Positions 19,418 to 57,739 of a stretch of DNA of 64,000 nt are shown here, piece after piece; the stretch's first letter is position 1; every line of letters starts with the position of its first letter. The position numbers and the translations under genes were made by a program. The DNA is from Macrocystis pyrifera (Eukaryota > Sar > Phaeophyceae > Laminariales > Laminariaceae), in the NCBI GenBank assembly GCA_031763025.1, contig JASSKH010000029.1, forward strand, positions 5,540,362-5,604,361. The letters are read 5' to 3'. Below the pieces are notes generated by a model. It was not told where the DNA came from and did not search any database. It saw nothing but the letters and a program-made list of their open reading frames with translations.

Positions 19418-22400
19418 ATGGTACGATTTGCCCCCGTCATTGTGGCTTTAGTGACTCTTGGGGTCCCAGCTGGTTCCCCGCTGCCGTCTTAGAAGAGTGA
19501 GTGAGTACTGCTGTCCATGCCTCAATGGGAATGCAGGCGGCTATCGAGCTGTCGTCGAGCCGTTAAGAATATTTTCCCCGCGACGTTTGGGCATTTTAAT
19601 GTAGCCACCAGACGCCAATGATATGTTCCTTGTTTTAGTTGCCGCAGCCGCATGTGTCTGAACGTTGAAGGCCAACTAGGTCATGGCTTGGTCGTGGCAA
19701 GCCTGTTCCGTGAATGGCGATGCCCACTACCTGGTTCGAAGAGGCTGATTGTGTCTGATTTCAGAATAACAGGGAAAGATTTAAGATACGACCATGTCGG
19801 ACTAACCGGATGTGATAGTTTTTACCCTCGGCACGTGTCATTTCTGACCTGACTTTTCCCGACACTGTCATTCCGTACTCGATCGAGCCTGCTGCTCTGC
19901 AAACAACAGCATTCACAAAAATAACACTAAAAACATTGTGATGGATGCCGACGTCTCCGTCGTGGTAGTAGCAGGTATCGGTTTGACGTCACACCTGCTA
20001 AAGATGCCTATCTCGTTGTCGTCTCCCCATCGTACCGTCTATATTGCACTAGCCGAAGAGGAAGCCGAGCAGGGCCTGCGTGGGAGGCGCACCATCTCGT
20101 ACAGCAGAGTGTGAGTCGGCATCGGCATGTTCAGGTGCTGTTGCTCATTCATGGCGTCTCAGGCAATACACTGTCGGCGTGCATGAGCGACACGGCAAGG
20201 CGAAGCAGATGATTTCGGGAAAAATCTCGAAACCTATATGGGCACGCTTACGACGTACTCTACAGCGGCGGATCACATGTTGTGCTCCCCACGCCCTCAT
20301 TGTGTAGTAACATCTTCTATAATGTAAAAATACTTGCCTCTCACCCCTGCTAAGCATTTGTATCACATCTCTTGACGGAGTATCCTTGGTTTTGTGTTTC
20401 CGTAACGAGCAAAGCTTTTGTCAAAGCGCAACAAGCGTACGCACATGCTGTTGCTCTTTACGACGTACGGGAGTGCCCCCATGTATGACAGTGAGAGTAC
20501 AGACTTTCAGCGGCTCGAACGGGTGCGTGAGGAAATTATTGAAAGTGAATTTTCAATAACACCTAGCACCTTTTAAACACGCCCTGCGCGCACAGACTTC
20601 TTGCTTGAAACTTCCAAAAGAAACCCAAACAACGCGCAATCGAGCACCGCTCTCTAGGTGGTGTGCGAGAGTAGCCTATCCGCTCACAAGGTCTATCGTC
20701 GACAGGCATCAACCAGGGTGTAGCTCGTATGGTGTGTATTTGTTGTTGTGTCAGGCGTGCGCAAAATACCATCGAGCATAAACATACTTTTGAAGACCTG
20801 CGCACAGTTTTAGTGATCAGAAGCACGTAGGGAAACTTTCACGCTCGTGTCGTGATGTGACCTATTACGGTAAACTCGTGAACACCCCGGTATTTCAAGA
20901 GTTTGTTATTTTTGGCAAGGCGCGGTGGCTTGTTTCTCACATGGTCGAATTTCAGGGAGGTCACCTTGTGTTTGCTTAATTCAACGCAGTGCCTGTGAAG
21001 CCGTCATTAAATACGTTTGTTTTAGTCCATGCGCGTTTCTCCGATATATACTAAGCATTTTATTTACGTAGCCAAAGCACGCCCTACGGCTACAACAATT
21101 CCTCGCTCCGGCTGACTGGCTTCATCCGTACCAAATGTAGGGGGTACTCGTAGCCGCGTTCAAGGCTTGGCCTCGGTTGACTACGGCCGAACATTGAGTG
21201 CTAGGCTCTATTGGTGGAGAGGCAAGCTTAACGAATGTGTGGGTCAACGTCCCTGCTCTCACGCTGTGCTTGGTTCGTGTACGTGACCAGTCGACCTAAG
21301 GATTCGATGGACCACTAGATTCAAAACATCGTAGGAACGGACTGCTGTATGCATTGGTGACAGTCGTAACCAACCCCAATTAGTAATCTCCTTGTGCTGC
21401 GCAGAATGTCTACTGCGGCTCATACAAGTGCTCCTACGGTTACACTCTGATCGACAACGCCGACGACGCCAAGTGTAAGTGGGGCAACTGCAAAAAATCT
21501 CAGTGCTGCGAGAAGGTCTGCTCGATCAACAACTGCCCTAAATACTACGAACTAGTCGACGACGCTGACACTACCACTACAAGTGCACCAAAGTTCAGTT
21601 CTGCGATAAGGCTGAGACGTTCTCGAGCTCACAGTGACAACACAGGATTGGGTCTTATCTTACAAGGGTTGAGATGTTTCCGTTTGCTTGTGGCATTTGA
21701 CAGTAATACGCTTGCTTATTTCTTTCCAAAGGCCGTCAATGACCATATCCACGGCCAGCGCAGTAAACATAAGTTGTCCTTATATTGTGGTTTCAAACTT
21801 GACAAAGGACAGCTCAAATTCCACGTGCTGCTTCGCCTAACCGTTGGAACGTCAACTGCAGACACGGTGTACTGCGACTCCTTCAAGTGATCCTACGGTT
21901 GTGCTCTGATCGACAACGCGAACCACGAGGAATAAAGCACGGTGAATGCGAGAAGTCCCAGTGCTGCGACAAAGTGTGCTCCAGCGACGACTGCCGTAAA
22001 CACTAAGAGCTTGTCGACGACGCTGACGCTACCGTGTTCAAGGACTACTAATGCACAAAGGATCATTTCTGCGAGAAGGGTGAGAACTATGAATATTGAA
22101 CAACCCACGGAGGGTGTTGCATATGTTTCAAGTGTTGTGCGGCCAGGTACCAACCTGGTACATTAGTCTGTCGTACTGCTCCTGGTTTCCAGCATGAAGC
22201 GTCCGTGAATTCGTATCGTCAACGCATATGCAGTTAATGCAGTTAATCATCGCAATGCCGGTTCAGACTTAGCATACAGGAGCTCATATCCCGTGTATTT
22301 TTTTAAATAACCGTTTGCATTGCATGACTGCAGACACGGTCTACTGTCATTCCTTCAGGTGCTCGTCTGGTAACGCTCTGGTCGACAACGCCGACCACCA

Positions 22401-23102
22401 GGAGTGCAATCACGGTAAATGCGAGAAATCCCAGTGCTGCCACAAGGTGTGCTCCAGCTATGCCTGCAAAATACTATGAGCTGGTGGACGACGCTGACAC
22501 TACCGTGCGCAAGGACTACAAGTGCACCAAAAGTCAGTTTCTGCGAGAGGGGTGAGACGCGTCCCCAATACACCCGACTGGAATCCAGCGGTAATGTGTG
22601 GTAGCGGTCCTACGAATACCTTGTCTGGCGACGTTCTGGCTCTCAGCAGAATTCCTATCATATATAATTAGGCGGAAACTGTCCGAGCCCGGGGAGAGAC
22701 GTTTTTTCACGTATTGTAACGGCTGGCATTTTTCCCTTTTATGCTGTGACTACCCGTTTTGAATTTGACCTCAGACACGGTCTATTGTGATGCCGGAAAC
22801 ACTGCAGCCTGAAGAAGGACTCTGACGAGATCAAATGCAACCACTCTGGGTGCACCACCGACAAATGTTGAAAGTATCCCTGTGAGTTGTGTTTGCCGTT
22901 GACGTTCTTCAGTTCATTTTAGGGGACGGAACACACGGCCGGTCCTATTGGGTAGTTGTAAGAGAAATCACGTTTCTCGAAAAAAAAGGGAATGCGCTCA
23001 GTGTATCTCTCGTAAAATTCAAGGACGACACCGAACGGTTGATGATGGTTGCCTACTTGACAGCCCTGTTACTCTAAGGCATTAGCCTGTCGACAGATGT
23101 AG
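19418..23102 (+). pseudogene. Cys-module secreted protein gene, copy A (decayed)
   Basis: It has the same exon order as copy C. Exon 1 is 19418-19496, exon 2 20053-20108, module 1 21405-21611, module 2 21862-22079, module 3 22334-22551, half-module 22775-22881 and terminal exon 23086-23102. Defects are visible. There is an in-frame TAG at codon 25 of exon 1. Module 1 has a deletion and its GT donor reads CT. Module 2 has in-frame stops (TGA, TAA and TAA) and loses key Cys codons. Module 3 has indels. The half-module has a deletion and a TGA. Only three full modules are present against seven in copy C. The identical 79-nt and 56-nt lengths of exons 1 and 2 across copies support the gene model. 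Confidence 0.8.
20053..20108 (+). pseudogene. exon 2 of copy A
   Basis: It is 56 nt, preceded by TTGCACTAG and followed by GTGTGA. It encodes an acidic to basic linker (EQGLRGRR) nearly identical to copy C. Phase 1 in, phase 0 out. Confidence 0.65.
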
Positions 23103-35696: not shown

Positions 35697-35820
35697 GTTT
35701 CTGTTTGATGTGTTATTCCTCGTCGTTCCCTTTTGTTTTTGTTTGTGTTCTTCTTGCTCTTCTTGCTATTGTTATTCTCCTTCGTCTCCTTCCGACAAGT
35801 TTTTCCATCATGAAAACCAG
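35697..35820 (+). promoter_or_regulatory. pyrimidine tract ending in AG, 39 nt before start codon (copy B)
   Basis: A TTCTTCTTGCTC-rich tract is followed by GAAAACCAG ending at 35820; the ATG is at 35860. Spacing is identical to copies A and C. Confidence 0.5.
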
Positions 35821-35859
35821 CCCCCATGTACGGCTTCCAATTTATATGGCACGTACAAG

Positions 35860-38000
35860 ATGGTACGGTTTGCTCCCCTCCTTGTGGCGTTGGTGACTGT
35901 CGGGGTTTCGGCTGGTTTCCCTCCCACGATATCGAATGGTGAGCGTAAGCATTCTCGCCCATGACACATGGGGGTGTAGGGGGCTTCCGAGTTACCGTCA
36001 AGCCCTTCAATACGTGTTATAGACAAAGTTTGCGCGTTCTCGAGGTGGCCGCTAGAGGCTACTGACATGCTTCCTGTTTTTTGTTGCACCGGCCTCTCAC
36101 TAGTTTAATGTTAAATATGTCATGGCCAAGTTGAGGCAAGCCTGGTAGGTAAACGTTGATGCTCACTAGCTCCGTTTCACTGGCCCACTCTATATATATC
36201 ATTTCAGAGTAAGGGTGAGAGCTCTAAGCTATGACCATGTAACAATATGCCCCTCGCCACATGCCATTATCAACAAGACTTTTTCTGACGCCTTCGGTCT
36301 TTACTCTATCGGGCATGCTGCCCTACAAGAAGGAAGAGCCTCCAAATCTTCAAACACTTACTTCAAGCTTTGTCATGGACTCTGGCATTTCCGTCGTGGA
36401 AGTGGCTGTTGTCGGTTCGACGTTACATTTGCTGATGATGTCCATCGCGTTATCCTCTTGCCATCGTACTATGTATACCTCACCAGCCGAAGGCGACGCC
36501 GAGCAGGGGCTCCGTGAGATGCGTCCCACTTTGAACAGCAAGGTATGAGCCTGTATGAGCTTTTCCAGGTGCTGTTGCTTACACATCTCGACTCGAGCGA
36601 TACACCGTGAACGTGCTTGATCGATAATGCAATACGATGCAGATGTTTTTTAATACCCAGAAACCCGTGTGTGCAAGTTTTCCATGTTAACACACAGCCG
36701 CGGATCCGAAGTGGTGTTCCCCATGCCCTCGCATTGTTTAGTCACATATGTTCTAATGTAGTCCACCGCTCCCGATCGCTGCTACGATATTGTTGTGAGT
36801 TAGGGGATCCCTCTAGATAGGGGATCCCTTTTGCCTTAGGGGATACCCTCTCACCTAAGGGGATCCTCTCTCGCTTTAGGCGATCCTCACTTGACTTTGG
36901 GGATCCCCTAAAGTGAGTGGGGATCTCCTACAGCAAGAGGAGGTCCCCTAGGTTGAGAGGGGCTCCCTTAAGGCAAATGGGGATCCCGTAGGGCCAACGG
37001 GACGCCCTAACTAGATGGATTCCATGATTAGGCAGCAGACACCCGTGTCAAATCTGTTGAAGGGATAGTCTAACGTTTGTCAAGAGGGTCGTGGTTTGGC
37101 GTTTTCATAAATAGGACCACTGTCGTCAAGGCGAGGCAACAGTGTGAAATTGTTCGTGTACTCTATAAGACGTACCGATGTTCTTTATGCCTGCCAGTGA
37201 TACTTCAGCCGCAGCGCGGCTCGAGCGCATGTTTGAGGCAATGGCAAAACAAAACCAGCAGTTTCTCAAACACCAAGCGCCTGTTTAAAACTGTTCTGCG
37301 GCTATTTATAACATCTCCGAAACCCCTAACAGCCACCAACATGCTGTGTCATCGAGGACCACCCATGACGGAGACTGTGCGACTGTGGTCGACATATTGC
37401 TCTTCGGCAGCAACCAACTGCAGTATTGTGTATACCGTGTGTTGTAGTTGCAGTGTCAGGCGAGCTCAAAGCACTACACAACATATACTGCATTTCGGAG
37501 ACGTGCGTACAGTGCTAATGATCAGAAGCACGCAGAAAGACACAGCGGCTCCTGTTATGAGCTTTCCGACGCTCATGGCTTCGTTCAAGGGCTGACCTTA
37601 GTTGACCACTGCAAAGCTGCAGTGGTGTGCTCTTTGAAGGTAAAGGAGAGCCTAACGCCCCCACTCTCGCGCGGGTGGTTTGGTTTAGGCTTGATCAGTC
37701 CACCATGGATTTAATGGCCCACCAGACTCAAGAAGTCGCAGAAATGTGCTACCATATACATTCGGGACGGTCGCCAACCACTTTCGATTGGTACCATTTT
37801 TCACACCGCGTGGAGTGTTTACGCTCTGATCGACAACGCCGACGACTTCAAGTGCAAGTGGAGCAACTGCAAATAGATTCGGTGATGCGAAAAGTCTGCT
37901 CTAGCTACAACTGACCTGAATACTACGAGCTTATAGAAGACGCTGACACTACCGTTTTGCAAGGACTACAAGTGCACCAAAGATCAATGCCGCAAGAAGG
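35860..38000 (+). pseudogene. Cys-module secreted protein gene, copy B (truncated)
   Basis: Exon 1 (35860-35938, 79 nt) encodes an intact signal peptide (MVRFAPLLVALVTVGVSAG) with donor GTGAGC. Exon 2 (36487-36542, 56 nt) is intact with donor GTATGAG. Only one Cys module remains (about 37814-38000). It lacks its 5' third and acceptor, has in-frame TAG and TGA codons, a TGC-to-TGA change and indels. Its 3' flank matches the sequence after module 3 of copy A rather than after module 1, so modules 2 and 3 were probably lost by recombination between modules. A 213-bp fold-back repeat sits in the intron before the module. Exons 1 and 2 could still be transcribed, but no full product is possible. 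Confidence 0.75.
36797..37011. repeat. 213-bp inverted repeat (fold-back) built on GGGGATCC
   Basis: The two arms meet at the palindrome GGGGATCCCC (36899-36908) and stay complementary for about 105 bp each, with scattered mismatches. Matched pairs include TTTTGCCTTAGGGG with its partner near 36968-36980, CCCTCTCACCTA with TAGGTTGAGAGG, and CTCACTTGACTTT with AAAGTGAG. Each arm is itself made of ~25-bp units holding GGGGATCC. Present only in copy B. Likely a fold-back mobile element or a cruciform-forming repeat. Confidence 0.8.
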
Positions 38001-41000
38001 GTGAGGCACATCCCGAACATACCCGACTTGAATCCAGCGTGAATGTAAGGTACAGTCCTATTATTAGCTTGTTTTTCGAGTTGCTGGTTCTCGGCAGAGT
38101 ATCGATGGTATAGGACATTTTTTGAACGGGCGCTTCACGACCATAGCACCCCATCGGCAGGGCGTCACGGGTATTCTAATTTCGGCGAGGATACTGATAA
38201 CACGGGAGTTGTAGTGGTATCTAGCACCTGAGTAAAAGTCGCGTCACAGCAAATACCCATGCTGTTCACGATATAAACGACGCTTTGCTTGCACAAAAGC
38301 ACTTCAGAAGACTTATGACTAAACGTATCGTGAATATTCCCCTGGCCATCAAAGACCTGACAGTGACGACAGCTGCATCGGTGTCCATCATCGTTTGAAA
38401 CTCTTAATATCATCACAACATAAAATGTGCTATATCTTGAATGTTTCCCCGTCTTCCATTTATGGTAGCATATCCCATGTCGCGTTCGTGTCCGGCATAA
38501 TCATTACAAGGGTTTGCGGTAGGTATGGGATACGTGAAGCGACAAACCGGTCATTTTCCACATGATACCATACACCTAAACGCTATATTGTGGGTTTCGT
38601 TTACCTTTCTGACATGACGCTGTGGTAATAACTGTGCTAATCGTAACCACGTACATAGGATATACGTTGCTGTTTGGGGAAGAAGTACGCGGTTGGATAT
38701 CGTGTAGTTGTTGCGTGTTTTCTTGCCCTCAAACATCCCGGAATTTGTTAATGCACGCATCGTGTCTTGGTTTCTGTATGTATGACTGGCTTTCTGCCTG
38801 TCCGTCTGAGATATAATCTGTGACGGTGAAAAGAGGCTGCATTGCGCACCCTGCAAATACCTAGTGCGACCAAAAAGGCGTTTATTTGTGGATACAGGTG
38901 ACCAAGGACAGGAACAGGACAGATGCGCGCCAACGCTCGGGGCTTGTTGCGTCGGAAGACGTTTTGAGTCCGCCTCAGCGCGCAGTAGCCAGCCATGCTG
39001 CTGTGCTATACAAGCGAATAGACATTGTATGCCAATGTGCTACTTGGGGCATACCGAAAAGTCTACACTGTGCCCGTTTGTTTGAAACGAAGGTAATACT
39101 CGGATTGCACCTTGACGAGGGGGCGCTGACGAAATGTCCCCGCACTTTCTCAGTCGTTTCGATGGGTCAATAATACCCTTGGTACAAACATTTCGATATA
39201 TTTATGTGAGTTTTGTCACGAATTCAATACTAATATGTCACCTCACATTGCCTGCATTCTACATATTTTTTCAAGTTGAAAAAAAAAATGGAAGCTGTGT
39301 GATACATATATGTGGTTTGTTTCATTATAGAATTTTGGCATTGAATATTACACGATATTGGTACTACAAAGACAGTTGTTCAATATTTGGGCGAACCTGT
39401 TCACCGACATACCTCGGCGTACCATGAAGGTGTTTGTGGATAAACGATACTCCAAAACCAAGTTTCCTCCGAAATAAAATTGGCTACTCGCAGTTTTGTT
39501 TTTGAGGGGACCATGGTTGGTCGCGACACCAGTTTGCAGCTCTGGCTATGTCCCCCTCCTCTTCTGTTGGCTGCGGTCAGTATTGTATCTTATGTGTGAC
39601 ACGTAACAGTTGTTTATATCGCGATCGGCGTTAGTGGTGGACGAAATCGATATGTAGCGGTGGACGAAATCGCGGGCAAAATGGTTGAAACAGCCGGCAG
39701 ATACGAATGTTTCCCCAAACTGTCCGGCTACAAACTCAGTTTGCTCAACGCACACGATGGAAGTGTGTGTAGGCAGATAGGCCGCCTTCTGGAAACCGTA
39801 TGGAACATGCGGTCACCTATTACAATTCGTATATGAAACAACTACATCGCCCTTTTGTTAAACAGTATTCACACTGACTTGTACATATTCGGGCACTTCC
39901 GTGGTGTTCCTATCAGGGCGAAGTATTTTGAAGCGCCAAAACGGCCGGCCTAGACTAAAGACCATATTCGTCCTCCATGACAGATAAAGGGATCGCTCTA
40001 TGTGTATTACTACTCTTTTCGTGGGCTGGCACGCTTGTACTGACTGCGGGGCAGCCTTGGTGATTGTTGGTGACCGGGGAAATTTCACTACTGAAGTTCT
40101 TCATGCAGGGCGGCAGTATTACTTATAGGTATACGTACATTGACCGTGTTCGAACTTCACGAAACACGTTGTTGCGCATGTTTGTCAAATGGTTAAGTAT
40201 TCGTCAGGTATCATACAAACAGTAGGTGAGACGCATACCATCTGTTCAGGTAGGTGTTGCAGAACACACCTGTAAACCCGAAATAGTTGAAGGCGCGAAT
40301 CCATCGATAGTTGAATAAATCGCGACATTCGCTAAATGTAGCTAACTATTTGAGAGTCGAATATGGTTGATAGACACGTGTATGGAATGGATCTCGTGTT
40401 TAATACCTAACCCTAACCTCAACCTAACAATCATTCGTCTAAGGCTAGATCTGTTCGTGTCACAGAGTGTGGTTCAACCATGTTATTTAACACGTTGTTC
40501 CGGGAAGGCTCTACCGTATTCAAAAACATATATTTAAGAACCGAAGCGCCGTGGCGGACGATTCAATTTTTGCTGCCATATGTCGATGGAATTTCGGAAC
40601 GTCTATTACTGAGGCGCCCTAGCATATGTTGGAGACACCTTGATCAAGGACATGTACGGTAAGCTGTATCCTTAGCTGGGCATTAGTCCGGTTTGTTGTT
40701 CCATTTTACCCTACAGAATAACGCCTGCTGTAGAATTAAAAAAAACACAGATTACCACGCCACCCTGGGTCATTCAGCGGCACATCGTCCAACACAAGCA
40801 CCAACCACCGGTGAGCTTAATAAGTGTAGCAAGGACGTATTGCAAAGCTTGAAACGGTGTCAATTAGTTTGCTGTTTGAAACTTCGTCAAGGGGTTCTTA
40901 TCACCTCTCAGAGTGTCTCCTATTAGCCTACAGCTAGCGATACACACCTGTAACTTGCCGCACTAGTGTGTAAGCGAAAATTGCGCACGATACCCGTGGT

Positions 41001-42042
41001 TAACGTATGAGACGAATGCGGGATGGGATACACTAGCCAGTCCCTGATGAATGGAGATGCGGGAGGAATACGGCCTATAGATAGACATGTGCTTAAGTGG
41101 GTTGCGAAACGAGCAGTGGTTTGGTATAACAACATTCCCTGTACGTGTATAGCTATGCAGAGGAAGGCACACCCGGTTGTTACGCTAGACCTAGACTACC
41201 CGCTACGCCGGGGATTTTGAAGTTGAATTCGCGCAGTGTAAAGACTTGATGCTGGTTGTTTGGCACTCTTGGACGTAGTATTTCGGAATCGGATAGTTTG
41301 AACATACTCCAGCTGAACCCATCCGCGAGTTGCACACGTTGCTCCGCAATCCCACACCACCCAGTTACACGTCCTGTGATGTATCACACCTGCATCACAA
41401 TTAATGTCGATACAATTCGAGTCGTCATTTCAGATGAAAATCGGTGTGTACGTCTGCTTCAGGTTGATACTGCCGTCTACTGTCCTATTGTCTCCTGTAG
41501 CAATAGAATGAGGTGTACATACACACAGGCATATTTTAAATGAGATGCTCTTTAAGAGTGATTCTTCTGTAAGTTAAAACAGCCGCTACCACTGCTGGTT
41601 TGGACGGTCTAGCTTTAAAATATATCGCGTGTTCCTCCTAAATGCTCGACGTAACTAAAAACCGTCATGGGCTATGGACATAAAGGTCCAAAAGACGGCC
41701 TGGATCTCGTGTCCAGCGAAAGAGGCCGGGCGATAGATACCATAGACGTACGTGTGGAATATATCTTTGATTGAAACGTCGGCCGTTCAATGTATACATA
41801 TATTAATCTCCTAGTAATGTGATATGAACCAGGTTTGTCCGATATTATCTCACCATGGCATTTACGAGCCAGACAGTGCCTACCAACCACACATCGCACT
41901 TGTGACGCCTTCACAACAGCTGGATACCACTCTCCGATATCGTATATGTGACTCCGGAACCTCACTCTGAAAAACATGTCGACAACACGGATATATTCGG
42001 TGCTACACAGTGAGCCAAACGTAGCATATTGTTCTGCTGGTC

Positions 42043-42188
42043 ATGTCTTTCTTCTTCTTGTTTTCCTGCTCCTTATTCTTCTTCGCCTCCTTCTCTTCTT
42101 CGTTCTATTTTCCTTCAGGTTATTTTATCTTGGGTCTTCGTCTTCTTGGACTCCTTCGTCCCACGATTTATTTATCATTATACTTCAG
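42043..42188 (+). promoter_or_regulatory. pyrimidine tract ending in AG, 39 nt before start codon (copy C)
   Basis: A CTTCTTCTTG-rich tract is followed by TATACTTCAG ending at 42188; the ATG is at 42228, exactly 39 nt on. The frame is open upstream of this ATG in copies B and C, so an upstream start at 41976 is formally possible. I prefer 42228 because it begins a signal peptide and gives the conserved 79-nt exon. Confidence 0.5.
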
Positions 42189-42227
42189 CACCCTAGTAGC
42201 GCTACCAATACATACCGTGGGTACAAC

Positions 42228-42306
42228 ATGGTACGGTCTGCCTCCCTCTTTGTGGCTTTGGTGACTCTCGGGGTTACAGCTGGTTCCCTTGTTCCACCTT
42301 CGAAGG
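42228..42306 (+). CDS. copy C exon 1: signal peptide
   Basis: It encodes a classical secretion signal, MVRSASLFVALVTLGVTAGS, with a plausible cleavage after the small residues. The donor is GTGAGT, phase 1. It is 79 nt in all three paralogues. Confidence 0.8.
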
Positions 42307-45300
42307 GTGAGTTGACGCAGTCCTGCCCATGACTAATGGAGGGTGGACAGGGCTTGCGAGCTATCGTCAAGCAGTTAAACGTTTGTTTTATCGACATTTT
42401 GTCTTATCAAGGTAGCCACCAGACGCCCATGACATGTTCTTGATTTGCGTTGTTGCAGCCGCGCGTGTGTTCCTAATTTAATGCAGAATAGGTCATGGTC
42501 CAGTCGAGGCAAAATCTGCTCCGTGAATGTTGATGCCCACTGTCTCATTTTCACTGCTCCACCATACGTCATTGCAGAATAGCATCGAGAGTTCTGAGCT
42601 ATTATCATATCGAACCAACCGGAGATGATATTTGTAACAGTTTGGCTTCGGCATACGACATCACTGAGCTCACGGCTCCCGACATAGTCAGTTTATACTC
42701 CACCTAGCATACTGCTCTACAGGCAACAGTAGCTATCATGTTTTTGCACACATATTACATAATTTTCTTAGCACGCTGACGTCTCCGTCGCGGTAGCGGC
42801 AGCTGTTGTTTTAACCTCACCTTTGCTAAATGAGCTATATTGTTGTCTTCTTGCCATCGTACCGTCTATCTATCACCAGCCGAAGGGGAAGCCGAGCAGG
42901 GCCTACGTGGGAGGCGCACTACTTCCTACAGCAAGGTATGAGGCTATATGGGTCTTCACAGAAGATTTTGCTCTTATAGAGTGACCCGGGCAAGACACCG
43001 TCGATGTGCATGAGTGGCACTGCAAGACCATGTAGATAGTGTATTTTTCACCTCAAGAACAACCTGGTCAATATCTTCACGTTTCTTTTCGGCCTGCGGA
43101 TCAGACGTTGTGCCCCGCATGCCCGCATTGTTAAACAATATAATTTCTATGATGTAGGGTTACTTGCGCCATATCCCCGTTAGACTTTGGAATTCGATGT
43201 GTGGATGGGATATTCTTAGGCGTGACAAAAAATCATCGTAGTGTGGCGTTTTCGTAACGACGAAAACTGCGATCAAGGAGGAACAAACGTGAGCACTTGT
43301 TGTAGTACTCTTCACGACGTACGGGAGCTCTACTTTGCCTGTCAGTACATCTACAGCCTCTTCCATGGCTCGAACGCAAGCATGAGGTAATGACTTGAAG
43401 TGCAGTTTCACGAACACTAAGCGCCTGTTAGAAACATACTGCGACCACGGCCAAGTCGCCCGAAACTCAACCAGCAACCCAAAAGAAACAAAAAACAAGG
43501 CAGTCGAGGACTACCCTTGATGCGATCTGTGAGAGTAGCACCTAGGCTCCTCACGTCGGTCCCGTGCAGAGAACAACTGTAGTTTTTTGCTCTTGCCGTG
43601 CGTAGTATTTTGTTGTGTCGGGCGTGCGCAAAGCACCATACGACAGATACTGTGATTTCAGAGACCAACGAAAAGGTTTAGAGGTCACAAGCACGTAACG
43701 ACATGCGCGTAAGGGGGCATGAGAGCTCGTCCTACGATGCAACCCACGTGGTCACACCGGTAGTAAATTTGATTCGTTTTCGATGGCAAGGGGTAATGCC
43801 TCGCTTCTCACACGGTCGGAGGTCAGGAAAATCACCTTGTGTTCGCTTATTCGGCCGCAGTGAGTGTGGAATTGTCACTATATATGATTTATTTAGTCTA
43901 CCTACTGTTTTATATTTCAAAAATATATTGTCTTCGCGTAGGTGAAATACGCACTGGGACTACAGACCTTTCCTGCTAGGGTTAGTTGTCGTCATCCGTA
44001 CCCAGCGTTGATTTCCTCATAGTCAGGGGATGCCCTTGGTTGACCACCGCAGCATAATTATTGGTGTGCTTTTTTTCAGGGGTATGTACCATTAGTGGAT
44101 GATGCGACAAATATCACCGTTTTCACGCTGGTATGTTTTATGTACTTGACCAGTCAACCTAAAGATTCAATGGTGAACCAAACTCGAGATATTATAAAAA
44201 AAGAGAACTACTGCATGCACTGGGAACAGGCGCCAACCAGTCGCGATTGGTAATCTCTTCACCCCACGCAGGATATCTACTGCGACTCCTACAAGTGTTT
44301 CTTACGGTTACACTCTGATCGACAACGCCGATGACGTCAAGTGTATGTGGGGCAAGTGCACAGAATCTCAGTGCTGCGAAAAGGTCTGCTCCAGCTACGA
44401 CTGCCCCAAGCACTACGAGCTAGTCCGCGACGCTGACACTACCGTGTGCAAGGACTACAAGTGCACCAAAGATCAGTGCTGTAAGAAGGGTGAGACGTAT
44501 ACGAGTTCAAAGCGTCTAAACATGGTTTGGTATATTACGTATATGCTCTCGTAGTTATCACCATTCGGGTGCTACTTGACTGCAAAACACTGGATGATAT
44601 CGAAGCAACAACTCAATATATTGAAATACAAGGCCTGCACGGTGAATACGAGTCGTCCTTACTTGGCGAGTTCAAACGTGACATGCACCGCTTACGTTCT
44701 ACGTGTTGCTGAATGCACCCTATGGAATATCCACCGCAGACAAGCTTTACTGCGACTCCTTCAAGTGCTCTTACGGTTATGCTCTGATCGACAACGCGGA
44801 CCAAGAGGAATGTAAGAACAGAAAATGCGAGAAGTCCCAGTGCTGCGACAAGGTGTGCTCCGGCTTCGACTGTCCTAAACACTACGAGCTAGTCGACGAC
44901 GCTGACACTACCGTGTGCAAGGACGACAAGTGCACTAAAGACCAGTGCTGCGAGAAGGGTGAGACGTACAGAAAAGCAGGGTACCCAAGCAGGGGTTGGA
45001 CTAATCCCTCCATCACTATTTGATATTCGCATGCCTTACTAGATGATTGTAGTCAACTTGACTATGCCTAACCAACGGCCGAGAATGTTTATATTGAAGG
45101 CCTTCGGAGTGAACACAGGCTGTCCTCCGTTTGAGGGTTAAATTTGCCATACAACAGCTCATATTCCACGTTTCGCTTCATGTAACCTTTCGAATGCCAA
45201 CTCCAGACTCGGTATACTGCGACTCCTTCAAGTGCTCGTCCGGGTACGCTCTGATCGACAACGCGGACGACGTGGAATGTGAGCACTGCATATGTGACAA

Positions 45301-47850
45301 ATCCACGTGCTGCGACAGGGTGTGCTCTAGCTTCGAATGCCCTAAACACTACGAGCTAGTCGACGACGCCGACACTACCGTGTGCAAGGACAACAAGTGC
45401 ACCAAAGACAAGTGCTGCGAGAAGGGTGAGGAATTTGAAAAAAGGATCACCCCCACACGGTCTATAATTTGTTTTACGTGTTCTGCTGGCGTGGACTAGG
45501 CTGATGCTTCTTGTCTGTCGTACTAGTTGTAAAACTCTGACCAACCACCGTGAATTCCCATCGTCAACGCCTATGCAGTTAAATAGGTTCATGATCGAAG
45601 TGTTGTTTGAGGCGTAACATAGGGTGGCTCATACCTCGGGTGTTGTTCGGTGCAACCGTTTTAATGTCAACTGCAGAGACTGTCTACTGCGACTCCTTCA
45701 GGTGCTCGTCTGGGTACGCTCTGATCGACAACGCGGACAACGTGGAATGTAAGCACGGCAAATGTGACAAATCCACGTGCTGCGACAGGGTGTGCTCTAG
45801 CTTCGAATGCCCTAAACACTACGAGCTAGTCGACGACGCCGACACTACCGTGTGCAAGGACAACAAGTGCACCAAAGACAAGTGCTGCGAGAAGGGTGAG
45901 GAATTTGAAAAAAGGATCACCCCCCACACGGTCTATAATTTGTTTTACGTGTTCTGCTGGCGTGGACCAGGCTGATGCTTCTTGTCTGTCGTACTAGTTA
46001 TAAAACTCTGACCAACCACCGTGAATTCCCATCGTCAACGCCTACGCAGTAAAATAGGTTCATGATCGAAGTGTTGTTTGAGGCGTAACATACGGTGGCT
46101 CATACCTCGGGTGTTGTTCGGTGCAACCGTTTTAATGTCAACCGCAGAGACTGTCTACTGCGATCCTTCAAGTGCTCGTCCGGGTACGCTCTGATCGACA
46201 ACGCGGACGACGTGGAATGTAAGCACGGCAAATGTGACAAATCCACGTGCTGCGACAGGGTGTGCTCTAGCTTCGAATGCCCTAGACACTACGAGCTAGT
46301 CGACGACGCCGACACTACCGTGTGCAAGGACAACAAGTGCACCAAAGACAAGTGCTGCGAGAAGGGTGAGGAATTTGAAAAAAGGATCACGCACACACGG
46401 TCTATAATTTGTTTTACGTGTTCTGCTGGCGTGGAGTAGGCTGATGCTTCTTGTCTGTCGTACTAGTTATAAAACTCTGACCAACCACCGTGAATTCCCA
46501 TCGTCAACGCCTATGCAGTTAAATAGGTTTATGATCGAAGTGTTGTTTGAGGCGTGACATAGGGTGGCTCATACCTCGGGTGTTGTTCGGTGCAACCGTT
46601 TTAATGTCAACTGCAGAGAATGTCTACTGCGACTCCTTCAAGTGCTCGCCTGGGTACGCTCTGATCGACAACGCGGACGACGTGGAGTGTAAGCACGGCA
46701 AATGTGACAAATCCACGTGCTGCGACAGGGTGTGCTCCAGCTTCGAATGCCCTAAACACTACGAGCTAGTCGACGACGCCGACACTACCGTGTGCAAGGA
46801 CAACAAGTGCACCAAAGACAAGTGCTGCGAGAAGGGTGAGGAATTTGCAAAAAGGATCACCCACACACGGTCTATAATTTGTTTTGCGTATTCCGCATGC
46901 GTGGAGTAGGCTGATGCTTCTTGTCTGTCGTACTAGTTATAAAACTCTGACCAACCACCGTGAATTCCCATCGTCAACGCCTATGCAGTTAAATAGGTTT
47001 ATGATCGAAGTGTTGTTTCAGGCGTAACATAGGGTGGCTAATACCTCGGGTCAACTGTTTTTACGTCAACTGCAGACACTGTCTACTGCGACTCCTTCAA
47101 GTGCTCGTCCGGGTACACGCTGATCGACAACGCGGACAACGTGGAGTGTAAGCACGGCAAATGTGACAAATCCACGTGCTGCGACAGGGTGTGCTCTAGC
47201 TTCGAATGCCCTAAACACTACGAGCTAGTCGACGACGCTGACACTACCGTGTGCAAGGACCACAAGTGCACCAAAGACCAGTGCTGCGAGAAGGGTGAGA
47301 CGCTTCCCGGACAGAACCGACACGGGTCCGACATTGACATAAAGAATCATTTGCTATAAATACATTGTTTGGTGCTTAACTGGCGTTTGGTAGAGTGTCC
47401 ATGTAATAGGGCCTTTATTATAGGCTTACGCCAGGGGATGATCACGTTCGATGTGTTCTATCAACGAATATATTCCCTTCCCCGCTGTGACTACTCATCT
47501 TCAATTTGATATCAGACACGATCTACTGCGACTCTTACTACTGCCCGAAGCACTACAGCCTGAAGAAGGACTGCGACAAGATCAAATGCCACCACTCCGG
47601 GTGCACCACCGACAAATGCTGCAAGTACCACTGTGAGTTGTGTCCTGATCAAAGTATTCAAGTTCGTGGTAGTCTCGGAACACACTGTCAGTCCTCTGGT
47701 GTATTAATGGAAGGAAGCAATGTGCTCGTCACAGTATGTATTGTTCGTCGTGTTTCTCTCGCTAAATCAAATGTCGATAGCGAACGGTTCATGATGTTTT
47801 TTACTGTACAGGACTGTTACCTTAACGATTCAGCCCGTGAACAGATGTAG
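42228..47850 (+). CDS. secreted cysteine-rich tandem-module protein, copy C (11 exons)
   Basis: Exons are 42228-42306, 42880-42935, 44272-44489, 44740-44958, 45207-45425, 45677-45895, 46148-46365, 46617-46835, 47076-47294, 47516-47632 and 47834-47850. The lengths sum to 1800 nt, which would be about 599 residues. The order is signal peptide, short charged linker, seven 73-residue modules of 12 Cys, one half-module, and a five-residue tail. Each half-repeat follows C-x4-C-x14-C-x4-C-x4-CC, typical of disulfide-rich extracellular proteins. Similar CC-ending repeats occur in secreted proteins of various protists and algae (family knowledge; no search was run). Introns are GT-AG and module exons are phase 1-1. 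As read, module 1 has +1 nt and module 5 -1 nt, so the frame is broken between them. Either these are sequence errors, or it is a pseudogene, or module 5 is skipped. Function unknown; likely cell wall or extracellular. Confidence 0.75.
42880..42935 (+). CDS. copy C exon 2: charged linker (56 nt)
   Basis: The acceptor TCACCAG and donor GTATGAG are conserved in A and B. The peptide includes EGEAEQGLRGRR. Phase 1 in and phase 0 out, which matches the phase-0 entry of the first Cys module. Confidence 0.75.
44272..44489 (+). CDS. copy C Cys module 1 (carries +1 nt)
   Basis: It enters in phase 0 (GAT ATC TAC TGC), unlike the other modules. It is 218 nt instead of the expected 217: AAGTGTTTCTTAC replaces AAGTGCTC(C/T)TAC of the paralogous modules, shifting the frame after the second Cys. 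From there to the donor GTGAGA the corrected frame is fully open with all remaining Cys. Confidence 0.65.
44740..44958 (+). CDS. copy C Cys module 2
   Basis: It is 219 nt, phase 1-1, 12 Cys, acceptor CACCGCAG and donor GTGAGA. It is more diverged than modules 3-7 (DQEEC, CKNRKC, GFDC). Confidence 0.8.
45207..45425 (+). CDS. copy C Cys module 3
   Basis: It is 219 nt, phase 1-1. The acceptor is ACTCCAG and the donor GTGAGG. It has an unusual extra Cys (EHCIC instead of KHGKC), giving 13 Cys in this module. Confidence 0.8.
45677..45895 (+). CDS. copy C Cys module 4
   Basis: It is 219 nt, phase 1-1, acceptor AACTGCAG. Exon and following intron are nearly identical to those of modules 5 and 6. 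Confidence 0.8.
46148..46365 (+). CDS. copy C Cys module 5 (one base short)
   Basis: It is 218 nt: TGCGATCCTTC replaces TGCGACTCCTTC, a single-base loss shortly after the first Cys. All else matches modules 4 and 6. Because the exon is phase 1-1, skipping it would leave the frame intact. Confidence 0.7.
46617..46835 (+). CDS. copy C Cys module 6
   Basis: It is 219 nt, phase 1-1, 12 Cys, acceptor AACTGCAG and donor GTGAGG. Confidence 0.8.
47076..47294 (+). CDS. copy C Cys module 7
   Basis: It is 219 nt, phase 1-1. The C-terminal part (CKDHKCTKDQCCEKG) and the following intron are of the module 2 / copy A type rather than the module 3-6 type, marking the edge of the recent duplications. Confidence 0.8.
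47516..47632 (+). CDS. copy C half-module exon
   Basis: It is 117 nt, phase 1-1, one half-repeat with spacing C-x4-C-x14-C-x4-C-x4-CC plus one extra Cys (KKDCDK). The acceptor is GATATCAG and the donor GTGAGT after KCCKYH. The homologous exon in copy A uses the same donor. Confidence 0.75.
47834..47850 (+). CDS. copy C terminal micro-exon
   Basis: It is 17 nt after GATTCAG. Joined to the preceding T it gives Ser-Arg-Glu-Gln-Met-stop. Copy A has ATTAG, then CCTGTCGACAGATGTAG, at 23086-23102 (Ser-Cys-Arg-Gln-Met-stop). An upstream CAG at 47809-47811 would instead create an immediate stop. Confidence 0.5.
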
Positions 47851-50800
47851 GTTTGCTCCTCACGGCGTCTCCGTTCATTTCACCACGCCTGGGCTGCAGA
47901 AAACGACCACTGACGGTAGGTTCGATTGATATAGTCCGAAATAAACTGTTTCAAAGTGGTAAATTCGCCGAACGCTGTTCAGAGCATCATCACCACCGTC
48001 GGAATGCCGGCGTTGTGCCCGATAGTATTCCCGAATTTGTGTATAATCCCACCAGGCTGATGGCTGGACATTTTTAATCACTGAGGGCACTCTACAGGCA
48101 GGGTTATTTCGCAAGCCGGATTGCATACAACATCAAGGAGAAATTCAATTCCGAGACGAATATTCCCCGTGGGACAGATGTAATTTATTTCCCCAACGCT
48201 CGCAGTCGACGCCTGTAGTAGTAATGGAGTCATGTTGTCCTGAAAATGAGTACCAATACAGGAGGTCGGCCCAACTAAGTGTAGACCTGCTACCTGCGAC
48301 ACGAACCGCTGCTTCTTCCACAGGATGTGACTGCATATTGCAACGAACATCTCAAGACGAAGAGGACAACGTTTTTCCCAAGAGTAACATGCTTGGCCGC
48401 GCGGTGTACAAAGTCGCCCCAGATGTTCGACATTCGGGCACCAGGCACACTTTATGGGTTTCAAGAGCACCCGTCGCTCCCCGCTGATCGAAGACATACC
48501 CTTGAACAATCTTCGATTGCGCACAACGTTTCCGCAAGGAGATGCGGAGTCCTTACGACTACTGTAGCTGTCTCGGTGCCACGTCTCACGTATGCAACTC
48601 GACTGAAAGTTCAGGGGACAATCTCTGTATTGGTGCATTTTGAATGTTGTGGGGAAAACAGGAGTCCCTCCTCCATTGGCAAGTGTCGAAATGTTCACTC
48701 AAGATAATCTCCTAGTTTGTCCGTTGGAATGGAGACGTATCAACAGCTTTTCTCTTTATCGGTGCTGTACGTGCTTAACTGTTTATTTGGCTTTGCTATT
48801 CTTCCGGTCGGAATAATGATCTTGACGCCACGCTCACTGGGTATGATCTCGAGTCTGATCCGGAATCACCACGTGCCCCGTATGGATCAAGGATTCCTAG
48901 TGTATGTTGGTATTACCTTCACCGACAGTACGGTTGGATTTGTCGATCTTTAGACAAGACAATTTCGTAGATGATGATCGAGGGAATCGCTGGTGTGATT
49001 GTTTACAAGTTAGTTCCTGAGATGTGAGCTTGGGTACACTAGATCGACGCATTTCGACTGGACGGTGTATGGAATTTGTATTTTCGCTGTTGTTGATCCT
49101 TTATCAATCGAGTGTGGTCTCCCTATAGTGTAAGCGGTGTTGAATCATGCGAGCTTGGAGGTTTCGGTAATTCTGGAGAACGCAAGTCCTCTTGCGTGTA
49201 AACAACACCCAACGTCGGGAATATAATCGATTTATAACATCATCGTACGGGTCGTCTCGTTTGACCGAGATTATCACTACACCAGGCGTGGCAAACATCC
49301 GCCCTGTTTATTGCAGTCAATATTCAAGTAGATCTATAGGAAGCATTGGACCCTGTCTTCTTCATGAATCACAGGTGTCACGATGGAACGCATGCACGTA
49401 CATACATTCGAAATGCACGCGGATAGTGTTGAACGACCACAACAGTCTTTTGAATTCCGAGGTTTGCGCCAATTTGTTTAGGTTCGGCCGTTTTCTTAGA
49501 CAGTTAATGACAAAGGTCCTGGGTGTATCCTAAACGATTCCTTGTTATGGGGACAAACATATGCTGTCGATATAAGTGCTTGATAATTATTTTTTGCTGG
49601 TGAGTATACTTTGGTATGTCTCTGTTCGTTGTTTTGGATGTGTTGCTGGGAATAGTCATGGGCACGCCTTATAGTTGAATCGGTACGATGGCTAACTAGA
49701 TGCTGCGCATTCCGGGAATATGAAGCTTGGTCCGGAATTTGAATAGGTTTGCTGCATAGTCCTCGGGTTAGCGCGGGGTCGTCATGTATACCAGGTGACC
49801 GAAGGCGGTTGTCCAAGCGTGCATGCCTCGCTCTTCGCTTACTTGCATATCTCCTGGTCTTTCTTGTTTTGTCAATGCGTCCCACGAGCGGCTACTACCT
49901 GTCTACAAGACCACCGGTTATGCAAGATAAACGCCAGGTACAACCCGGCTCTTTATCCACTACCTGTGTTAGCGTGTATTACCTCCTTTTTGAGGATGCG
50001 ATCACGTGTGCCGGCTCACGCCCGTCGGTTTAGCTGCATCGCTGTATTTTTTTACTCCACCGATGGCCGCACCACGCCGTCCTGCAGGCTCTCGCCGGGA
50101 CTACGGTGGTCACTGTATATCAGCCCCGCTCGCATACGGCAAAGTTGATATTTCATTTGCATACATCAAACGATAAAGCTTTTCTTTCGGCGCGATGGCA
50201 AGAAGCCGATGCCCTCATGCTGCCGTCAGTCGCGTCGTTGACATGGCCAGGATATTTACGGTCACAAACTGGCTTGCTGCGACCATGGTCTCGGTCGACC
50301 CCAGTCATATCTCAAGCCACGTAGCGCCCCAAGACGCTGGGTGTCCCACACAACGTCGCTCGTAGTGCCCACGAAGAGAGGATTGCTCAGAGAGGCCGCG
50401 TCCACGATCAATGTTCTAATAGAAGGCTGCGTAGAACCCCAAGAAGGGAATCACTGTCAATGGGCAACAACAGCGATTTATGCATCCAACCGAGCACTGG
50501 TACATATACTTCGTATACTTGCATGTCCCCTGATATTGACCGTTTTGTCATTTTGACTCATGAGCGGTTCCTAACTGAGTACACCGACGGCTTCTTGAAT
50601 TGAAAACCGTCAGCCACAGCACGGATGTTTAAGCACTACCTACGCAGGCCTGTATTACGGCCTTTAAAGAATCTCCAACGAGGCGTTCTACGATAGAACT
50701 TCACCCTATATCTTTCTGAGGCCCCTCACATGAAGAGCTCCATACCGCACCCGAAAACTAACTTCAGAAAAAATCAAAGTGCATTCCGACGAATAATCTA

Positions 50801-51950
50801 ATGGCCCAAGTATACAAAAACACCATTTTTTAAAAGAAGATTGGCATTCCAGCGATTTTAGGTTAAGGATCCCCGTTATGCAGAAACCACCTGAGTCGAA
50901 ATGTGCTACCTCTATCGTAAAACGCGTGCAACACGATACAAAAATGTAATATTCAGGTGTGTCGGCTCACACCCTACGGTTTAGCTGCATCGCCATCACT
51001 TGTTTACGTCAGTAAATAACTGCATGAACCTATGGTGGAAACCTTTGCCGGCATTGCGGTGGTCACTCTATGTCAGTCCCGCTCGTACCCGGCGATGTTG
51101 CGATTTAATTGGTACACATCTAACGACAAAGTCATTCTACTGGAAAGATGGCCCGAAGCCGAAGGCCTCACGCTGCAGTCAGTTTCGTCGTTGATTTGGC
51201 CAGGGGCAGGGATATATAGGGTTAAAAAAACTCAATTGCTGCGTCCATCGTCTCCACCGTGCTCGGGCCATATCTCGAGCGGCAACGCGCCCGAGATGAA
51301 TGGAGTCCACAACCACGTGGCTCGTATTGCCCACGAAACAATGATCGCTAGGGTGGCTTCGCTCACGAATCAATCTTGCAATATTATGCCTTGAAAAACC
51401 GCCAGAACTAAATCACTGTCGGGAGGGTAACAACAGCGATCGATGCATGTAACGAAGCACTAGTATATACTAAACCGAACGAGTTAGCTTACATATGAGT
51501 AGTTGAACATCTGCAGCTCGTTTTACATTATTTTCCGGAAACCTGAGTTGAGCTGATAACCTGCATCAAACTGAAGGACACAAATACCAAGAAGTGCAAT
51601 AACCAAACCATTCCGCGCACTGTTGCCATTCGTTTGTTAGGTGCGAAACCAGAGACCATGTTATCCTGTAGTGTAAGCGTTTGCAAATATGTGATATTTG
51701 CGTGTTCACGTAACGTTGCTGTGACACTAATGCATTTCCAAGACCATTAACTGTTGTTTTTTATATTTAGGGCTGTTGACAAACGCGTACGTACACCCGG
51801 CGCACGTCAAGCATCACAAAAATTACATCATGTTTCTCAGACAGCTCTCACCGGCAACACGGCCCGAGGTTTCCGCTCAACCGCGTTTCGGGTGTACCGA
51901 ATGGGCTTGCCAGCGAATTAGCCATAACGCACAAGGGGTGTGCATACCGG
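47850..51950. other. copy C downstream part, no supported gene
   Basis: It aligns with 23.1-26.3 kb. Open frames such as 48698-48078 (minus, 206 codons) and 48327-48707 (plus) overlap each other and are not preserved in copy A. A block at 50.03-50.55 kb (GGTTTAGCTGCATCGC start) is repeated at 50.99-51.47 kb, so the stretch contains a diverged ~960-bp duplication. Confidence 0.5.
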
Positions 51951-52784: not shown

Positions 52785-52806
52785 GTATATATATATATAT
52801 ATATAT
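52785..52806. repeat. (AT)n microsatellite at element copy 2 end
   Basis: A pure AT run directly before TACAAGG. Confidence 0.85.
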
Positions 52807-52856
52807 ACAAGGCTTTCCTTCGGAGTGGGTATTCCGTCGTTTCTTGTACAAATACA

Positions 52857-53050
52857 TTTAGTTTGGTTGGCTTTGGGCTATGACGCCAATTGCAGTTTTG
52901 GTTGGCTTTGGGCTTTGACGCCAATTGCAGTTATATTGCAATTGGGGTAATAGCCCAAAGCCAACCAAACTAAATGTTATGACGCCAATGGCAGTTATAT
53001 TGCCAGTTATATTGCAATTGGGGCAATACCCAAAGCCAACCAAACTAAAT
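52857..53050. repeat. inverted and direct repeats of TTTGGTTGGCTTTGGGCT
   Basis: Two forward copies (52860 and 52897) and two inverted copies (about 52950 and 53030, the second one base shorter) of TTTGGTTGGCTTTGGGCT occur within 190 bp, together with GACGCCAATTGCAGTTATAT units. Element copies 1 and 3 have a single copy. A strong hairpin is expected. Confidence 0.75.
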
Positions 53051-53177
53051 GTATTTGTATAAGAAACGGTGAATGATGTAATAATCACGTTTATTTGTGA
53101 ATGTAATGTGAAACGTAAGATCGGGTGACGCGAGAGTAAGAATGGCATTCGTCTAATAATAAGGATAACGTATTTCA

Positions 53178-53673
53178 TCAGTGCGGGGAGAGAGTGGAGT
53201 AGTGCATGGCATGTGGATGATATACAACATACAGGCTGTTGTTTCAAGGAAGGTTCGGGACAGAGGGGAAAGCAGCAGTGCCGGCAACGACAACGGTTAT
53301 GGAAATGTTGTATAGTTGCTGGGCGGCCGCGATTTCGATTTAGCCAGCATAGGAGTTTGGATGAGACATGGTATGTAAATAGTCTTCCAGGCTGCTGTAG
53401 TAACGAGGCGGGAGGCCCAGAATGTGGGTATGTCTGCTGTTGAACCCGTTGGGTATGTGTAGGGAGAAATAGTCGTGATTTTGGGAAATGTGGGAACAAT
53501 TTGTTGCCTCTCATTCGTCCTGGATGGAGACAATCTGCTTGGCGTCCTGCTTCGGAATTCCGCGAAGCCCTGGAGCAGGCGAAATGGAAGGGAGTCTTCT
53601 TGCGCTTGATGATGATGTCTCCGTCTTTGATGGTGGAGTCCGTCAGGCGGCAGTTGTAGCACTTGCCACCGAC
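53178..53673 (-). pseudogene. element copy 2, exon C
   Basis: The finger part (KCYNC...FHFAC) is clean. Downstream, one base is missing relative to copies 1 and 3 at CCCACATTTCC, and a TAA or TGA interrupts the OTU-like part (MAKSKSRPP frame loss, PEPSLKQQ region). It ends with YVVYHPHAMHYSTLSPH and a stop. Not translatable as one protein. Confidence 0.5.
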
Positions 53674-53738
53674 CTGGTCGAAGTAAACAGGGTGCGCGGG
53701 GCGGGAGTGGCGTGCAGGAAATGGCGGGGGAGGGGGAA

Positions 53739-53765
53739 GGGGGGGGGGGGGGGGGGGGGGGGGGG
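53739..53765 (-). repeat. 27-base G run (C run on coding strand)
   Basis: It lies just upstream of the exon C acceptor of element copy 2, where it forms the pyrimidine tract. Copy 3 has 15 and copy 1 about 9 at the equivalent place. Confidence 0.85.
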
Positions 53766-53769
53766 CAGA

Positions 53770-54849
53770 GTTCATTATTTGTACTGCTCTACAGCGGCAC
53801 AACAGCAGTACGTAATCGCTTGCTATACGACGGCAGCAGCAGCAGCAGAAGCAGCAAGTACATGCGTAAAACGGAGCAGGAAAACGGCCAAAACATTTTT
53901 ATAACGTACCAAAACGACCATTTGGGTGCAAAAACGACCAAGAAAAACAGTAATCCGAATACATAAGAACAATCAGTGGATATTGAGCCAGCATTAGGAG
54001 TATCAGCCGCAGCAGCAGCTGCAGCTGCAACGGCTTCGAGCAGTGATTGCGGCAGCATTAGAAACATTAGCAGCAGCAGAGGCAGCAATGGATCGCCGCA
54101 GCGTTGGCAGCAGTAGCGGCATAGCAAATATATGATAAAAAAAGAAGAAACAAAGTATGTACCCTGGTATGCCGCGACCGCAAAAACTACGGAACTTGTA
54201 CACACAAATGACCAGCATGATGTACAACGCAGCAGCAGCACCACAGCAGCGTAGCAGCTATAAGGAAAGAACGAAGCCCAAAACGAGAAAAAGCAGTACG
54301 TACGCAAAATGCAGCAGCAAAATGACCAAAATATTTTTTCCAGGTACCCAAACAACCATTTAGGTACAAAAACGATCAAGAAAAACAATAATCCGAGTAC
54401 AGGCGAACATCCAGTGAATATTGCGGCAGCATTATTATTAGCATTAGCAGCAGCAGCAGCAGCAGCAGCAGCAACGGATCGCCGCAACGTTGGCTGCAGC
54501 AGCAGCAGCATAGCAACGATATGAAAAGGGGGAAGAAAAAAACTACGTACCCTGGTCGGCCGCAATCGCAAAACGTACGGTAATTATTGACGATACAGAA
54601 ATATGTACACACACACGAGTGTAATACACACACGAATCACGTCCAGCATGATGTACGGCAACAACGCAGCAACACTACAAAAAAAATCGTTGACGATACA
54701 GAAATATGTACACACTCACAAGTGCACACAAATCATGTCCAGCATGATATGTACGGGAACAACGCAGCAGCGCCACAAAACGACAAAACGACCAAGAAAC
54801 ACAATTATCCGAGTACATACGAACATTCAGTGAATATTGCGGCACCACT

Positions 54850-54889
<40 letters not shown>

Positions 54890-55653
54890 GCAACGGATCG
54901 CCACAGCGTTGGCAGCAGCAGCAGCAGCATAGCAACGATATGAATAGAAGGAAGAAAAAAAGTATATACCCCGAGTCCGTCCGAAAAGTATTTTTGATAC
55001 CTCACTATAGATAGACCCACCCCCGCATGCTGTACGGCAACAACGCAGCAGCAGCAGCACAGCAACAATACGAAAAGAACCAAGCTAAAATACGAGAAAA
55101 AGTAGTTCGTACGCAAAATGCAGGAGCAAAACGACCAAAATATTTTTTTTACGTATAAAATAAATCATTTGGGTACAAAAACGGCCAACAAAAACAATAA
55201 TCCGCGTTGGCAGCAGCAACATAGCAACGATATGAAAATATGGAAGAAGAAAACTATGTACCCTGGTATGCCGCGATCGCAAAACCTACGGAAATTCAGT
55301 GACGATACAGAAATATGTACACACACAAGTGCAGCATAATGCACAACAACAACGCAGCAGCACCACAGCAGCAGCAAGCAGCAGCATAGCAACGATAGGA
55401 AAAAAAATCAAGCCAAAAACGAGAAAAAGCAGTACGTATGCAAAATGCAGGAGCAAAACGGCAAAAATATTTTTCACGTATCAAAAGAACCATTTGGGTA
55501 CAAAAACGGCCAATAAAATCAATAATCCGAGTACATACGAACATTCAGTGGATATTGCGGCAGCATTAGCAGCAGAAGCAGCTACAGCATTAGCAGCAGC
55601 AGAAGCTGCAATGAATCGCCGCAGCGTTGGCAGCAGCAGCGTTGGCAGCAGCC

Positions 55654-55686
<33 letters not shown>

Positions 55687-57698: not shown

Positions 57699-57739
57699 CA
57701 GAGTTCATTATTTGTACTACTCTACAGCGGCACAACAGC

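Follow-up and report, generated by a model that had tools for sequence, protein, structure and literature searches.

A seven-module locus of the giant kelp Macrocystis pyrifera and its family of cysteine-rich, probably secreted repeat proteins

How does a gene come to carry seven copies of one cysteine-rich module, each in an exon of its own, and can such a gene still make its protein? The question is raised by a locus, herein called locus C, in a 64,000-nucleotide stretch of the genome of Macrocystis pyrifera (GenBank assembly GCA_031763025.1, contig JASSKH010000029.1, positions 5,540,362 to 5,604,361), which we refer to as the window and whose own coordinates are used below. Locus C extends on the + strand from 42228 to a stop codon at 48325. 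Comparing sequences, we put the probability at roughly 0.8 that it belongs to a large giant kelp family, arrayed in tandem, which encodes cysteine-rich repeat proteins that are probably secreted.

Exon plan of locus C and its close paralogs

The building block of the predicted protein is a repeat of about 35 residues with six cysteines, C-x4-C-x14-C-x4-C-x4-CC (spacing 4-14-4-4-0), and two such repeats with three residues between them form one 12-cysteine module. The spacing occurs 15 times in the six frames of the window and did not occur at all in 50 single-base shuffles. Across an alignment of 41 modules (A2), the two halves of one module are on average 41% identical, with a range of 24-71%. 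Alignment A2 comprises 38 of 52 diverse modules, themselves taken from 117 paired modules (104 distinct), plus three more from the window; the 14 left out were either broken (4) or in overlapping register inside one exon (10). The invariance of all 12 cysteines in A2 is partly a product of selection, because the hidden Markov model step that selected the modules demanded a cysteine at the first place and a 35-residue spacing. With the 41 modules as its alignment, AlphaFold2 predicted for the seventh module of locus C a fold with a mean local confidence (predicted local distance difference test, pLDDT) of 87.9 and a predicted template modelling score (pTM) of 0.61, the five models ranging from 65.5 to 87.9 in pLDDT; one pattern of short helix and strand recurs in each half of the modelled module.

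The features of locus C are given below; loci A and B are its two sisters in the window, to which we return.

42228..42306, + strand: exon 1, 79 nt; holds the start codon and a hydrophobic segment resembling a signal peptide; phase 1 at its end; alignable across loci A, B and C and 16 paralogs
42880..42935, + strand: exon 2, 56 nt, phase 1 to 0; short GRR-bearing stretch; kept in loci A, B and C and in 16 paralogs
44272..44489, + strand: module exon M1, 218 nt against 217 in paralogs; +1 nt, frame broken
44740..44958, + strand: module exon M2, 219 nt, phase 1-1
45207..45425, + strand: module exon M3, 219 nt; opens the series of near-identical units
45677..45895, + strand: module exon M4, 219 nt
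46148..46365, + strand: module exon M5, 218 nt; frame broken by -1 nt
46617..46835, + strand: module exon M6, 219 nt
47076..47294, + strand: module exon M7, 219 nt; resembles M3-M6 in the exon but not in the next intron
47516..47632, + strand: tail exon, 117 nt; one 6-cysteine repeat; its final base is the T of a split stop codon
48324..48325, + strand: GA completing the split TGA after the acceptor ACAG at 48320-48323; the exon runs on as 3' untranslated region

All seven module exons are bordered by AG and GT. The original prediction had them at 217-219 nt, each with a complete 12-cysteine module; the seven exons stand, with lengths of 218 nt (M1, M5) and 219 nt (the other five), while the complete modules number five, M1 and M5 falling out.

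The last intron (47633-48323) splits the stop codon as T|GA, and the acceptor ACAG|GA was found after the tail in 8/8 aligned loci (six paralogs, locus C and locus A), in a block with 13 of 30 identical columns against a mean of 6.0. The gene had been proposed to end at 47850 with a 17-nt exon (47834-47850), which is too short; this exon and its variant 47812-47850 were rejected in favour of the acceptor at 48323. Two further exons fitted by eye, 43942-43980 and 44080-44130, were also dropped, as they lack conservation in loci A and B.

Eighteen genome regions with close matches were examined. Sixteen of them (L009-L024) share the full plan, namely a 79-nt exon 1, a 56-nt exon 2, modules and a 117-nt tail; exon 1 or 2 was not found in the remaining two (L025, L026). 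The first module of these paralogs has 217 nt and phase 0-1, the later ones 219 nt and phase 1-1. Exceptions in length are the tail of L013 (116 nt), exon 1 of L019 (80 nt) and the first module of L020 (218 nt), and the first-module acceptor of L017 reads AC. In the 13 paralogs with at least two modules, all modules past the first occupy 219-nt exons of phase 1-1, so that the predicted phase of the later modules is confirmed by the interior modules of intact paralogs. Five of the 16 genes have four modules, eight have two and three have one, compared with seven in locus C.

The frame is open from the start codon to the tail in 11 of the 16 paralogs (L009, L011, L012, L014, L015, L016, L018, L021, L022, L023, L024). 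In each of these 11, the residues GRR of exon 2 stand directly ahead of the first module and resemble a pro-protein cleavage site. The hydropathy of exon 1 peaks at 2.44 in an 11-residue window, and at about 2.4-2.5 across three genes.

The open paralogs are under purifying selection overall, judging by whole-gene pairwise ratios of nonsynonymous to synonymous substitution (dN/dS). These are 0.11-0.18 in three pairs of four-module genes and 0.11-0.27 in nine of ten two-module pairs, the tenth having no amino-acid change; two of three one-module pairs, with very few changes, give about 0.36 (0.008/0.022), and the third pair is identical. Comparisons of exons 1, 2 and M1 between the four-, two- and one-module classes yielded 0.14-0.36 (four comparisons), and those of locus C with L011 yielded 0.08-0.25 (also four). 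Between L011 and other genes (six comparisons), the identity of exons 1, 2 and M1 was 69.6-95.9% and always exceeded that of both upstream introns (61.7-79.9%).

The family across the kelp genome

A search of 537,376,219 bases in 223 contigs gave at least 169 matches to a one-module query and 103 to a tail query. The 150 module matches listed fall into 82 clusters on 7 contigs, and together with the tail matches into 107 clusters on 11 contigs; a cluster joins matches at most 4 kb apart and may hold decayed copies, so these are not gene counts. On C196, three arrays count 13, 10 and 9 of the listed matches, with steps of about 732 or 742 bp. The arrays of 6-cysteine matches at C196:10004456-10015689, 10084577-10094931 and 10129411-10136835 are longer than that of the window. 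The L027/L028 locus (C210 4.394-4.410 Mb, minus strand) has 14 twelve-cysteine modules spaced 0.4-1.7 kb apart. The 19 matches clustered at C210 4.395-4.406 Mb stem from two queries taken together and include some modules twice.

The exon plan was followed at 37 loci (L009-L046 without L028, which overlaps L027) and in the window. Among 99 runs of at least two repeats, an acceptor stands 9 or 11 nt before the first cysteine codon in 76 and a donor GT 7 nt after the last cysteine in 81, whereas AG was met at six control distances in 0-10 of the 99. Taken alone, the divergent loci have the acceptor in 35/57 runs and the donor in 41/57. Longer runs are rare: 3, 4 and 5 half-repeats occur in 7, 2 and 1 of 155 runs, and the total of 297 half-repeats includes the overlap of L027 and L028.

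Relatives were absent from phages and viral contigs (three scans) and from bacterial and archaeal genomes (one scan); other algae were not among the collections searched. Our literature searches turned up no description of this kelp family, which does not prove it unpublished.

Several observations speak against this account of the family and of locus C. All exon borders are drawn from the sequence and its paralogs, and the case for secretion comes from the hydrophobic N-terminus. Among the divergent loci, 22/57 runs have no acceptor at either expected place and 16/57 have no donor. Downstream of the tail, two other blocks outscore the acceptor block, with 17 and 15 of 30 identical columns and no explanation. 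The dN/dS inside locus C (ten module pairs) is 0.22-0.45, higher than elsewhere, as would fit relaxed constraint. Finally, an 11-exon model of locus C, of the kind first predicted, translates with 16 stops, 15 of them internal. As to the two downstream blocks, one lies inside the last intron and the other past the split stop.

Module gain and broken frame in locus C

The modules M3-M6 lie in units that succeed one another every 470 bp or so; Tandem Repeats Finder gives a period of 470 over 45193-47299. In all six pairs, the exons are 94.5-98.2% and the introns 92.1-97.6% identical, as the original prediction of near-identical units had it. The exon of M7 is 94.1-95.9% identical to M3-M6, whereas its following intron reaches just 55.8-66.5%; the introns after M1 and M2 show 60-68% identity to any other. 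On a tree built from the 42 module exons, out of 49, that are distinct, M3-M7 of locus C form a private clade (support 100/99), and its M1 groups with the first modules of L009-L013 and locus A (95/83). Such identities and topology indicate that the copied unit was the exon with its following intron, and that copying took place within locus C after it had split from its sisters. Copy number thus changes through duplication of exon plus intron. With the plan present in 16/16 paralogs, the central claim of the original prediction, a gene with one module per exon grown by duplication of phase 1-1 exons, is supported. Unequal crossing-over between near-identical units may have driven the growth of M3-M7.

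The exon lengths had also been said to support the whole model, as they add to exactly 1800 nt. We reproduced the sum (79 + 56 + 218 + 3 x 219 + 218 + 2 x 219 + 117 + 17), and it lends the model no support. The 15 internal stops arise because M1 has 218 instead of 217 nt and M5 218 instead of 219 nt; the total holds only because the +1 of M1 and the -1 of M5 cancel, and the frame between them is lost. Exon-length sums should therefore be treated with caution, as they may fit by accident when two indels cancel. Locus C as assembled cannot yield the full protein. Skipping exon 2, M1 and M5 would leave an open frame through the tail, and nothing indicates that such skipping occurs.

Either this copy was lost recently, or the two 1-nt defects are errors remaining in the sequence. 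If they are errors, locus C would be a functional seven-module gene, a reading to which we give slightly less than an even chance. It would agree with module frames that are open outside the two indels and with the five complete modules. For the assembly, PacBio Sequel II reads were joined by Canu and polished with Racon, the latter being the only polishing named in the part of the genome description at hand (PMC10498591). Single-base indels, counted in eight paralog pairs, point the same way: four pairs more than 98.6% identical differ by 4, 8, 6 and 4 in 5619, 4682, 4205 and 4209 aligned bases, that is, by 4-8 per 4.2-5.6 kb, and the pair L019/L020 by 20 in 4671 (about 4.7 kb); three more distant pairs differ by 16, 8 and 17. 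On the other hand, just one of the two indels of locus C touches a run of equal bases, and 5/16 close paralogs are disrupted too. Indels are also rare among the four near-identical units (0-1 gap columns in the introns of M3, M4 and M5), so this spot shows no indel excess. As for L019/L020 itself (C210 4.18-4.21 Mb), its members are 99% identical and both frameshifted, and it might be a patch of poor assembly consensus.

The alternative is that locus C is a recent pseudogene, younger than its two neighbours. The window carries three tandem copies of a segment, about 65% identical in alignments of up to 5.4 kb, two of which are decayed. They span 16770-26208, 32924-38732 and 39646-51947 and bear loci A, B and C, the first two being as follows.

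19418..22881, + strand: locus A, sister gene in decay; has three module exons, a tail, stops and frameshifts
35860..38002, + strand: locus B, sister gene in decay; retains exons 1 and 2 and a portion of one module

The clear decay of both sisters, the two frame defects of locus C itself and a dN/dS among its modules above that of the open paralogs all suit a pseudogene. The other exons of locus C are nevertheless free of in-frame stops, and its modules still stand at a dN/dS of 0.22-0.45. For this scenario, too, we would quote odds just short of even. Under both, locus C remains in our reading a member of the kelp family.

Besides these loci, the window holds a repetitive element, probably transposon derived, at 26337-29644 and 52789-60426 in opposite orientation (main blocks 82-92% identical), and a CTA trinucleotide microsatellite of about 80 units at 61755-61993. 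No match was returned by Rfam at its gathering threshold or by a tRNA search of the window. Ten long open reading frames elsewhere in the window gave a single weak Pfam match (E 0.036), under the cutoff. The G+C content of the window is 47%; that of the whole genome is given as 50.37% (PMC10498591).

Possible relatives and role of the family

No Pfam or NCBIfam family scored above its cutoff for the kelp modules, and the best PHROGs match had an E-value of 0.27. A single-module search of PDB found complement control proteins at best (E 0.099), which we took as chance. The 41-module profile had as its top PDB match 2bic, the oomycete protein PcF (E 0.0043), and so did a 16-row subset (E 0.0063). 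It is tempting to suppose that the kelp family and PcF descend from one stramenopile disulfide domain; on the sequence comparisons made here, we regard such shared descent as doubtful. In its favour, two column-shuffled profiles with cysteines kept do not list 2bic. The PcF model PF09461 gave 8 matches at E<=10 in the whole kelp genome, the second of which (C210:840847) is an exon of the family (L039); the first (C210:994800) sits in the same chromosome part, with a family cluster on either side. The L039 exon matches PF09461 in three stretches (16.1 bits, E 0.015). However, none of the genome matches reaches the 25-bit Pfam cutoff (best 20.0 and 19.6 bits), and none of the 41 modules matched PcF at E<=1. 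One of 14 control genomes matches PF09461 as well, below the cutoff. Such E-values are weak in cysteine-rich sequence, because the unrelated SNU71_N outranks PcF for L039 (E 0.0024) and one shuffled profile matched an unrelated protein at E 0.068.

The comparison of the proteins themselves is likewise divided. In the alignment, PcF shares C-x4-C-x14-C and CC-x3-C with the kelp module, and both come from stramenopiles; PcF, unlike the kelp proteins, is a 52-residue single domain and lacks a cysteine at the fourth place of the repeat. PcF was reported as limited to Phytophthora and close kin (PMC5700374). We therefore treat the PcF resemblance as a lead and not as membership. The CPL1-like family (PF21671) gave still other weak signals, with a best score of 17.7 bits against a cutoff of 27.4, 7/41 modules at E<=1 (best 0.012) and one half-repeat at E 0.004, all below the cutoff.

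The role of these proteins can be discussed only tentatively. The signal peptide would be removed, perhaps with cleavage at GRR, and the modules might act outside the cell as disulfide-bonded beads. Our best single guess, held with rather less than even confidence, is a matrix, mucilage or surface protein.

Two known systems of brown algae invite comparison. EsV-1-7, the repeat of IMMEDIATE UPRIGHT, likewise belongs to an expanded cysteine-rich repeat family of these algae, but its proteins are hypothesised to be zinc-finger transcription factors. The EsV-1-7 repeat ends in C-x2-H and the kelp repeat in CC. The ROCO (LRR-ROC-COR) genes resemble the kelp family in their manner of growth: in the same lineage they too have one repeat per exon, a common phase and tandem exon duplication (PMC11378527). 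Their exons differ in being of 72 bp and phase 2 and in encoding the leucine-rich repeats (LRRs) of GTPases, for which that report gives diversifying selection, whereas the kelp family has 219-nt phase 1-1 exons, a cysteine-rich and probably secreted module and a low dN/dS.

Exon-shuffled LRR receptors have been proposed in brown algae, and by analogy the kelp modules could form a variable recognition repertoire. The ROCO genes, growing exon per repeat in the same way, were proposed as candidate immune receptors (PMC11378527), and module number differs between copies of the kelp gene. Yet the whole-gene dN/dS is low and, at that level, offers no sign of the diversifying selection reported for ROCO repeats, and in the gene models we saw neither a kinase nor a transmembrane or other signalling part. 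Such a repertoire thus seems to us improbable, the least probable of the readings considered here.

Overall, growth by one exon per module is a known kind of evolution in brown algae (PMC11378527), here with a different protein. In its broadest form, which the sequences make us consider unlikely, the scenario would be that the roughly one hundred match clusters represent an undescribed exon-modular 6-cysteine family sharing the fold and origin of PcF, an old stramenopile disulfide domain that kelps polymerised one exon at a time into secreted chains; the length of these chains would differ among gene copies and perhaps also among individuals. If the PcF resemblance does reflect homology, the kelp proteins would be linked to a family known from oomycetes. 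Locus C points to a repeat family that no Pfam model matches above its cutoff, in an alga of ecological importance, and it shows the gain of modules as it happens: a copied 470-bp unit of exon and intron that brought one gene to seven modules, where its sisters have one to four.

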